From an uncultured Pelagibacteraceae bacterium (GTDB lineage: Bacteria; Pseudomonadota; Alphaproteobacteria; Pelagibacterales; Pelagibacteraceae), in NCBI GenBank assembly GCA_902539235.1, contig CACBIC010000003.1:1-64000 (forward strand): a stretch of DNA of 64,000 nt. The letters are read 5' to 3'. Below, in pieces: positions 51,949-55,051 of the stretch. Each line of letters opens with the position of its first letter. The stretch's first letter is position 1. Below the pieces are notes generated by a model. That model was not told the DNA's origin and made no database searches. It saw only the letters and a program-made list of their open reading frames with translations. The translations under genes and the position numbers were made by a program.

Positions 51949-53355
51949 ATGGACTATATATTTATAGATACTGAAAGTACAGGATCAAGCACAGTTTGGG
52001 ACCACATAACGGAGATTGGAATGATCCGAACTGATTCTAATCTCAACATAAAAGATACTTGGGAAATGAGATGTAGAATTAAGGATGGTGTTGTCCCAAA
52101 TTTGGGCGCCCTCGAGGTCACAAATTTTACTATAAAAGATTTAACTGAGTCAAATTACTCCCATTTACAAATGGTTGAGGCAATAGAAAAAAAATTCAAA
52201 GAATGGGGAAAAGTAATAGTCTTTGCATATAACGGGCAAAATTTTGATTATCCTCTTATTCAAAAGACGATGTACAAGAGTTTAAAACCACCTTATCTTT
52301 TAAATACCGAGGGAAATAAACAAGGTGATATCCTTAATGTTATTAGAGCAGCCAAACTAGTCAACCCTGAAGTAATTGAAACTCCAATATCAGACTCAGG
52401 AAATCCTGTATTTAAATTAGACAAATTGATGAAACACGAGGGTGCACACGGAGCATTAGCAGACAGTCGCGCTATGTTATCTGTTGCACAAAAGGTGTAT
52501 GAAAAATCTAATTCTGTTTGGAAATGTTCTCTTCTTACTCTCAGTCGAGCTGATAGCACTAATGTTATCATTAAAAATAAAATGTTTTGTCAACTGCAGT
52601 GGTTTTATGGACGATTAAGAAAATATTTAGTTCATCATTTTACATTTCATCCAATATTTGAAGCTTGGAGCCAGTGTTGGGATTTGAGGTGGAAGCCCGA
52701 AGATTATTTTGAATTAGACGATGAAAACTTAAAAAAAGCATTAACAAAATCTCCAAAAATTTTACGTAGTTTTAAAACAAATAAAAGTGAAGTTATCCTA
52801 AACTACAAGCACGCTTTAGATGAAAATCCCTATAAAGAAATTGGCATTGAAGAGCTAAAAAGAAGGGTGGAAATTTTAAGCAATAACTTAGAATTTAAAC
52901 AAAGAGTAAATAAAATTCTACAAGAAATTCACGATGAAAAAATCTCACTTGATAAAGAAATTGACAAAAAACTCTATCCAGAAGAAATGCTTTACACTAA
53001 TTTTCCTAAACCAGAGGATAAAAATTTAATGAAGATATTTCATCAATTTAATTGGGAGGATAAAATTGATGTTATTGATAAATTTAAAGAAGAAAGATTT
53101 TCCAGATTAGCCGAAAAATTAATTTATGAGGAAAAACCCGAGGTCCTTCCTGAAAGTACATTAAAAAAAATTAAAAGAGAAATAGCCGAAAGGATTTTTT
53201 CAACAGAAAAACAGAATTGGACAACTTTACCAGAGTTTTATAGGCAAATAGATGAGAAAAGAAGCAAGTACGAAAATGATGAAATAAAAATGAAATTATT
53301 AGATGAATATGACAAATTTGCACAAGCTATAGAGAAAAAATATGAATCTGCATAA
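51949..53355 (+). CDS. Exodeoxyribonuclease I-like DEDD exonuclease
   Basis: FIDTESTGSSTVWDHITEIG, FAYNGQNFDYPLIQKTMY, HGALADSRAMLSVAQ. Confidence 0.85.
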   Translation: MDYIFIDTESTGSSTVWDHITEIGMIRTDSNLNIKDTWEMRCRIKDGVVPNLGALEVTNFTIKDLTESNYSHLQMVEAIEKKFKEWGKVIVFAYNGQNFDYPLIQKTMYKSLKPPYLLNTEGNKQGDILNVIRAAKLVNPEVIETPISDSGNPVFKLDKLMKHEGAHGALADSRAMLSVAQKVYEKSNSVWKCSLLTLSRADSTNVIIKNKMFCQLQWFYGRLRKYLVHHFTFHPIFEAWSQCWDLRWKPEDYFELDDENLKKALTKSPKILRSFKTNKSEVILNYKHALDENPYKEIGIEELKRRVEILSNNLEFKQRVNKILQEIHDEKISLDKEIDKKLYPEEMLYTNFPKPEDKNLMKIFHQFNWEDKIDVIDKFKEERFSRLAEKLIYEEKPEVLPESTLKKIKREIAERIFSTEKQNWTTLPEFYRQIDEKRSKYENDEIKMKLLDEYDKFAQAIEKKYESA

Positions 53356-53396: not shown

Positions 53397-53425
53397 TTGA
53401 CATATTTAAATAAAATAATTATTTA
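53397..53425 (+). promoter_or_regulatory. Promoter of trxA, near-leaderless
   Basis: TTGACA-N17-TATTTA; predicted start ~53432, ATG at 53433, no SD. Confidence 0.6.
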
Positions 53426-53432
53426 ATCATTA

Positions 53433-53801
53433 ATGGCAACCATAAAGTCTACTGACGAAACTTTTGAAAAATTAAAAAAAGAAAATAAAAATCTTTTAAT
53501 AGATTTTTGGGCACCATGGTGTCGATGAGCCCACTCACATCTTGTGGGTGGGCTCATCGATACAAACCCACGTGGTCCATGCGTTCAAATTTCTCCGGTG
53601 TTAGAGCAAATCTCTGAAGAGATGAAAGATGTAACTATTGCTAAACATAACATTGAGGAAGAATTAAATCTCCCTGTTCAATTTTCTGTGAAAAGTATAC
53701 CGACCATGATTCTTTTTTGTAATGGCGAACAAAAAGCTGTTAAAGTAGGTGCATCTAGCAAAGAAGATCTAGTGGAATTTCTTAAAAAAAACAAAATTTA
53801 A
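53433..53801 (+). pseudogene. trxA: Thioredoxin interrupted inside WCGPC by a 51-nt hairpin insert with in-frame TGA
   Basis: MATIKSTDETFEKLKKENKNLLIDFWAPWC | insert | GPCVQISPVLEQISEEM...SIPTMILF...; the halves are in the same frame. Confidence 0.9.
53523..53573. other. 51-nt GC-rich palindromic insert
   Basis: CGATGAGCCCACTCACA-TCT-TGTGGGTGGGCTCATCG + ATACAAACCCACGT; 28/51 G+C; deleting it restores TGG TGT GGT CCA TGC. Confidence 0.85.
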
Positions 53802-55051
53802 TTTTTATTCAAAATATTTGAACAAAAATAAAGACTGCCGAAACAGCAGATAATTTTTTTTTCATTACTACTAATTTTTTTTAACGCTTCTTTAAAATTC
53901 TGTGCTGTCTCAGACTTAATTTTATTGTTATTAGCTATCTTGTTGAGTTCTTTAGCAGAAACTGAACTTTCGTTTTCTATAGGAATGGTAACTATCTTTT
54001 TAAATATACCTTTCAAATTTTTAATAAATAATTCTGGCTCTTTATTCTTAGACATGGCCCAAACACCATATATGGGCAATTTTATCTTTTTAAGATAGTT
54101 GAACAAATTTAACGAGTCCGTGGGTGCATGAGCACCATCTATCATTATCATTTCATTTTTATGCAACATTTTTTTTATGTTACCTTTTTTTAAATAATCA
54201 TATCGACCTGGAAAAGATAGGTTGGGAATAGTTTTTTTTATTACTTTTTTGCTGATATTTAAATCTAAAGCTATTTTGATAGCATGAGCAATATTACTAA
54301 ACATGCCCTCGCTATGTACATTTTTAGCATTAAGCTTTATTTTCGCTGACTTATCTTGGTAAAAATAAAGATTATTTTTTTTTATTAATCTCCAAGAACT
54401 TGGATAATGGATTATACTTTTATTTTTTTTCAAATAAAGTTTAGCCCTCTTTAATACATAGGGGGTTTGTTTTGCTATATATATGTTACTAAAGCTGGAT
54501 AAATACCCTGTATCCTCTTTGATTATTTCACTTAGAGTTTTTTTTTTAAGAAAGTTTTTATGTTGCAGATTAATATTTGTAACGACTTGAGCGAGGGGGA
54601 AAGAAAAGATATTCGAGCAATCATTTTTCCAAAGAGCTCCAGTCTCTATAATAAAGTAATCTACATTTAGTTTAGACGCATTTATTACATAAACCAAAGT
54701 AAGAACTTCGTACACAGTTAAGGGAATTTTTAATTTTTCAATCTTTTTAATAGTCTCTTTAATTTCTCTATAAGATAAATATCCTTTTCCCATATAGTAT
54801 CTATCTCGAATATCAAAAATTGACGGCGAAGTGTAAGTTGACACAGTTTGATTGTTAGCTTCTATGAAATTTTTTAATGACCACAGCGTAGTGAATTTTC
54901 CTGACTCACCAAGTACGCTAATAACGTTATTAAGTTTCCTTTCTGGATTTCCTAATAAATTGAGAGCAAGTTTGATTCTTTTAAGACCAAACTTTACAGA
55001 TTTATTAAATAATTTATGACGCGTTAGATGCTGGTATATCAACTTTGACAT
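53798..55051 (-). CDS. folC: Dihydrofolate/folylpolyglutamate synthase
   Basis: NVISVLGESGKFTTLWSLKNFIEAN, MIDGAHAPTDSLNLF. Confidence 0.9.
   Translation of the reverse strand: MSKLIYQHLTRHKLFNKSVKFGLKRIKLALNLLGNPERKLNNVISVLGESGKFTTLWSLKNFIEANNQTVSTYTSPSIFDIRDRYYMGKGYLSYREIKETIKKIEKLKIPLTVYEVLTLVYVINASKLNVDYFIIETGALWKNDCSNIFSFPLAQVVTNINLQHKNFLKKKTLSEIIKEDTGYLSSFSNIYIAKQTPYVLKRAKLYLKKNKSIIHYPSSWRLIKKNNLYFYQDKSAKIKLNAKNVHSEGMFSNIAHAIKIALDLNISKKVIKKTIPNLSFPGRYDYLKKGNIKKMLHKNEMIMIDGAHAPTDSLNLFNYLKKIKLPIYGVWAMSKNKEPELFIKNLKGIFKKIVTIPIENESSVSAKELNKIANNNKIKSETAQNFKEALKKISSNEKKIICCFGSLYFCSNILNKN

Follow-up and report, generated by a model that had tools for sequence, protein, structure and literature searches.

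How can a gene that is broken between the two cysteines of its active site, with a stop codon close behind the break, encode a thioredoxin? The question is raised by the trxA gene of this Pelagibacteraceae genome (G000), found in the 64,000-nt stretch of DNA that was analysed as a whole and is called the window here. Direct reading of the sequence gives the layout of the original prediction, with the ATG at 53433, TGG TGT ending at 53522, the insert, and GGT CCA TGC from 53574; the stop codon of the gene lies at 53799-53801. The insert consists of 51 nt (53523-53573, CGATGAGCCC...CACGT), follows directly on the TGG TGT of the active site and, as had been claimed, has TGA as its second codon. 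The hairpin, described earlier as 17 pairs extendable to about 20, is real and longer, with 21 bp and a 3-nt loop; it is by far the strongest in the window, where the runner-up has 12 bp, and RNA folding of the insert region gave z = -6.6 relative to shuffles. The features of the locus are as follows:

53397-53425, forward strand: sigma-70-like promoter TTGACA-N17-TATTTA of trxA, read from the sequence, with identical boxes in G083
53433-53522, forward strand: first half of trxA (MATIKSTDETFEKLKKENKNLLIDFWAPWC), matching Pfam PF00085 at 26.1 bits, within-group dN/dS mostly ≤0.2
53519-53563, forward strand: hairpin of 21 bp with a 3-nt loop, its 5' arm containing the proposed take-off codon and the stop
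53523-53525, forward strand: CGA, proposed take-off codon (position X of CXPC), immediately 5' of the stop
53526-53528, forward strand: TGA stop, proposed A-site codon at take-off; an early stop is common to all 11 genomes
53564-53573, forward strand: unpaired linker from the hairpin to the proposed landing triplet, 9-13 nt long across the 11 genomes
53574-53576, forward strand: GGT, proposed landing triplet; GGT, GGA, GGC or AGC stands at the equivalent position in all 11 genomes
53577-53801, forward strand: second half of trxA (PCVQISPVLEQ...LKKNKI), stop included, matching Pfam PF00085, dN/dS 0.03-0.15
53798-55051, reverse strand: folC (TIGR01499), convergent neighbour and marker of the orthologous trxA locus, next to trxA in relatives with and without the insert

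Taken separately, the N-terminal piece scores 26.1 bits and the C-terminal piece 55.6 bits with the Pfam Thioredoxin model, both above its cut-off, and when joined they reach 102.3 bits with TIGR01068, the NCBIfam equivalog model for thioredoxin, whose cut-off is 96.8. The predicted promoter was found upstream, and similar boxes precede trxA in the other insert-bearing genomes except G069, where the start of the contig is too near. The -10 box ends 7 nt upstream of the ATG (53397-53433) and no ribosome binding site intervenes, a spacing which suggests that the trxA mRNA may be leaderless. The folC product matches TIGR01499 at 154.3 bits, slightly below the cut-off of 162.65. Also adjoining trxA, at 51949-53355 of the window, is a gene for an exonuclease I-like protein, matched over its length by PRK11779 at 133.5 bits against a curated cut-off of 260, and such a gene is found upstream of trxA in another insert-bearing genome too (G000, G083). 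A small ORF (..DTGxRIEVGxSKTKPQCYKQ..), for which an NCBIfam search gave no match, lies upstream of trxA at L034:1162-1362 and also in G187, G162 and G023.

Comparison with the trxA of relatives, a course already pointed to in the original prediction, placed an insert at the identical site in 10 further genomes of the genus. Searching relatives with the hairpin revealed it in G083 and G067, then in G191, G174 and G069, and when 169 genomes of the genus were searched for thioredoxin at the protein level, five more were added (G023, G070, G187, G162, G165) whose matches start just past the first cysteine; these bear another type of hairpin at the same point. The interrupted form thus amounts to 11 genomes from as many species, about 8% of the trxA genes of the genus. 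Since trxA adjoins folC both in insert-bearing genomes and in intact relatives, the interrupted gene is the orthologous locus. The gene order, with trp genes, accD, folC and trxA, points to a bacterium that is probably a SAR11-type alphaproteobacterium.

The inserts fall into two types without evident sequence relationship. Group 1 (n = 6: G000, G083, G067, G191, G174, G069) runs TGG TGT, CGA or GGG, TGA, a 19-21 bp hairpin, 9-11 nt, and GGN CCN TGY. Group 2 (n = 5: the genomes found by the protein search) starts with TGG TGY GGT, followed by TAA in G187, G162 and G165 or reading GGT NTT TAG in G023 and G070, and continues with a 10-bp hairpin, 9-13 nt, AGC or GGY, and CCN TGT. The order of parts is common to both: candidate take-off codon (CGA or GGG in group 1, GGT in group 2), stop, hairpin, linker of 9-13 nt, landing triplet, CCN TGY. 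The early stop, which may be TGA, TAA or TAG, is at codon +1 in nine of the genomes and at codon +2 in two (G023, G070). A hairpin is present in every gap, with stems of 10-21 bp and compensatory changes; its start relative to the 5' junction is X-4 in one type and X+9 in the other, and its distance from the landing triplet is constant at 9-13 nt. When the count starts after codon X and includes the landing triplet, gap lengths are 51 (n = 5), 49, 46, 46, 45, 43 and 41 nt and so occupy all three frames, near relatives differing by a single nucleotide (46 vs 45); reading through in frame therefore cannot be a conserved property. The frame-preserving insert of 17 codons, to which the original prediction drew attention, is true of G000 and accidental, as homologous inserts have 41, 43, 45, 46 and 49 nt. 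It is only by omission of the gap that a thioredoxin would be restored in every genome.

The sequences argue that the gene is in use. Within clusters dN/dS is 0.03-0.15 in the second half (dS 0.3-1.5) and, over few sites, mostly ≤0.2 in the first, values mostly between 0.03 and 0.15 which point to strong purifying selection on both halves. In the group-1 stem 99.2% of cells are paired and 3 of 20 pairs have changed on both sides, 15 pairs being invariant and hence uninformative for covariation; in the group-2 stem there are compensatory changes at positions 1, 7 and 8. That trxA is decaying or inactive, its function provided from elsewhere, would find some encouragement in the in-frame stop and in the incompleteness of the insert-bearing genomes (60-95%), and is nevertheless extremely unlikely given selection on both halves, covarying stems, persistence of the insert across large divergence, and the outcome of a search for a second TrxA in all 11 genomes, one of them 95% complete, which found none. 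The other thioredoxin-family matches in these genomes are frames of 174-178 aa, TlpA/DsbE type by size, and, supposing that each genome did have an intact trxA, the chance of incompleteness hiding it in all 11 would be about 5e-8, as the product of (1 minus completeness) with genomes treated as independent. The intact trxA elsewhere that had been considered at the outset was thus not borne out, the interrupted gene being the sole TrxA found, and the view that this is not ordinary decay holds. Two of the options raised at the outset, an assembly artefact and a very recent palindromic insertion, are refuted by the diverged, covarying hairpins at one identical site in 11 genomes. Programmed excision from the DNA, or phase variation that leaves part of the population with an intact trxA, would agree with the patchy and apparently mobile character of the hairpin element; we regard it as very unlikely, since all 11 assemblies contain the inserted form, the ends of the element have no conserved direct repeats, and both the placement of the stop and the 5' stem-loop described below would be left unexplained.

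The other readings have the insert dealt with in the message or on the ribosome. Translation of the gap as additional residues, by stop-codon read-through or selenocysteine insertion, is suggested in group 1 by a TGA with a hairpin behind it and by 51-nt gaps that keep the frame, yet it would leave the second half out of frame with gaps of 49, 46, 43 and 41 nt, meets further zero-frame stops in G023, G070, G187, G162 and G069, and has to contend with TAA and TAG in place of TGA; we give it almost no credence. A selenoprotein with a bacterial SECIS was rejected on the same grounds, the UGA being neither conserved nor consistently in frame. Two separate polypeptides, the first ending at the stop and the second initiated independently, which then assemble, could draw on GTG or TTG codons in the gap of several genomes; this too is most improbable, for G023 has no ATG, GTG or TTG in the frame of the second half ahead of the second cysteine, G174 has no start codon in the gap, and the split would fall between both active-site cysteines. 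Removal at the RNA level, in which the hairpin segment would be excised from the mRNA and the ends joined by a minimal splicing system not yet recognised, deserves more weight and is still doubtful. A junction TGY|NGN would yield an in-frame thioredoxin in all 11 genomes, the product being WCGPC (group 1, G023, G070) or WCSPC (G187, G162, G165), and for G000, joined at TGT|GGT, the expected junction peptide would be WAPWCGPCVQIS. The intact trxA of G003 and G163 (L028, L179) encode WCSPC and WCNPC, so that glycine is not obligatory at X of CXPC in the genus and WCSPC is natural there; WCRPC was not among the intact relatives sampled. Group I and group II self-splicing introns have catalytic cores of more than about 200 nt. 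The inserts, at 41-51 nt, are far under the size of known self-splicing introns, and Rfam gave no match above threshold, none for group I or group II coming near the gathering score. A tRNA-type (bulge-helix-bulge) mRNA intron finds no RtcB-type ligase, which was missing from all 14 genomes tested while the controls worked. Removal from the RNA moreover leaves unexplained why a stop of variable identity stands one or two codons in, and the position of the hairpin relative to the 5' junction differs between the two types. RNA-level removal, one of the options raised in the beginning, is less likely than bypassing; an unrecognised minimal system of this kind, improbable as we consider it, would provide the smallest known bacterial protein introns, inside a thioredoxin active site.

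Programmed translational bypassing accounts for the stop, the hairpin, the freedom of frame and the gap length together, and a coding gap like that of phage T4 gene 60 is the best supported of the options originally put forward. We consider it probable, from comparative sequence evidence, that trxA is a core bacterial chromosomal gene decoded in this way, with alleles that have spread by recombination. The gene would yield a functional thioredoxin from an mRNA that includes a non-coded gap. A ribosome would translate up to the codon that follows the first active-site cysteine (CGA in G000), meet there the stop codon in the A site together with a strong hairpin, release the codon, and traverse the gap with its peptidyl-tRNA held, to re-pair at an in-frame GGN-like triplet just 5' of CCN TGC and resume with a ...WC-X-PC... 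thioredoxin; from take-off at CGA the junction peptide of G000 is expected to be WAPWCRPCVQIS. The hairpin may refold behind the ribosome and drive it forward, and the constant 9-13 nt from hairpin to landing would suit refolding at the exit side of the ribosome when the landing triplet enters the P site. A stem start that varies (X-4, X+9) with a constant hairpin-to-landing distance would be easier to reconcile with a ribosome than with an RNA nuclease that is specific for structure. The anatomy, its conservation, covariation and selection can be read from the sequences; that omission takes place on the ribosome and that codon X is the take-off codon, we infer.

In G070, G023 and G174 the take-off and landing codons agree at all three positions, either exactly (GGT to GGT) or through wobble (GGG to GGA, GGT to GGC); the other eight share the middle G and wobble only, with a first-position mismatch (CGA to GGT or GGA, GGT to AGC). 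Take-off at the cysteine codon, with landing on the triplet before NGN, was rejected, the landing triplets having no pairing except in G191. It also counts against bypassing that the proposed A-site codon is a sense codon in G023 and G070, where the stop comes one codon later, and that the WCRPC predicted in 5 genomes is absent from the intact relatives sampled. A 5' stem-loop immediately upstream of take-off exceeds synonymous-codon shuffles in all five group-2 genes (z -2.5 to -4.6), against a mean z of -0.2 by the same measure in intact relatives, and was not significant by such shuffles in group 1. In the group-2 thioredoxins (L184, L185, L186, L182, L183) KFEA replaces the usual DFWA before WC, at the position of this stem-loop, and the protein sequence may have been bent to suit the RNA structure.

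The resemblance to T4 gene 60 extends to most of its parts. There, bypassing uses a GGA take-off codon, UAG in the A site, a take-off stem-loop, a 5' stem-loop, a gap of 50 nt and a GGA landing site (PMC5009743, PMC11194080, PMC8211752). The trxA genes similarly have an immediate stop after the take-off codon (nine of 11, codon +2 in the others), a hairpin at take-off, a gap of about 50 nt linking two ORFs whatever their relative frame, a landing triplet immediately before the resume codon and, in group 2, a 5' stem-loop upstream (PMC5009743, PMC11194080). Ribosome sliding in T4 is processive for gaps under 56 nt, a range that includes the 41-51 nt of trxA and was counted in favour of bypassing (PMC11194080). 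Unlike the phage gene, trxA is a cellular core gene that occurs in two sequence types and many species; its hairpin is longer and landing lies 9-13 nt beyond it, its first half has 31-32 codons rather than 46, and its codon match is often two of three. The Shine-Dalgarno-like GAG 6 nt before landing is absent from most of the 11 linkers, and in gene 60 it has a modest effect only (PMC5009743). The byps of Magnusiomyces capitatus mitochondria likewise are short inserts that are skipped with imperfect codon matches tolerated and with apparent mobility, but there are 81 of them in one mitochondrial genome and they employ an unused A-site codon, whereas trxA has one site in one gene and a stop codon (PMC5009743). 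Bypassing has also been claimed for bacterial and phage genes in the 29-nt hop of Prevotella loescheii and the Streptomyces phage Hau3 candidate, each an isolated case for which comparative support is slight or absent; the Hau3 candidate relies on UUA and not on a stop (PMC5009743).

How the interrupted form came to be distributed can be judged in part from the trees, as those of trxA and FolC are discordant: the FolC of G174, of G069 and of the G000 group are each nearest to that of an intact genome, and the trxA of G069 belongs to an intact-type lineage that bears a group-1 element. The discordance indicates that insert-bearing alleles, or the element alone, have most likely moved between species, by recombination. 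A search for the elements in other genes with models R1 and R2 gave strong matches in trxA only. In a class-level thioredoxin search, 32 weak matches were on re-examination uninterrupted or shortened without an active-site split, and 397 genomes of the family, scanned with a pattern that misses the TAG or codon +2 types, showed only chance-type matches outside the genus. Viral contigs contained no group-1 element patterns and, among the best 80 loci, no related thioredoxin gene split by a group-1 element. A scan of genome contigs turned up no close relative.

Rickettsia palindromic elements are palindromic inserts in bacterial protein genes that keep the frame and are translated, unlike the trxA inserts, which carry stops and alter the frame. 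To our knowledge, phage T4 and yeast mitochondria are so far the only systems in which ribosome bypassing is firmly established, and in the literature, covered through open-licence papers, no comparable case was found. If bypassing is true, trxA would be the first evolutionarily conserved case found among the core genes of cellular bacteria, and it would add 11 sequences in two separate natural designs to a mechanism that had rested on one phage gene, so that rules for take-off, hairpin placement and landing become testable by comparison. It would also mean that an essential gene is mis-annotated by gene finders in such bacteria, and it raises the question of why the active site of thioredoxin should retain a gap, whether as a burden, as a selfish element or as a means of regulation.
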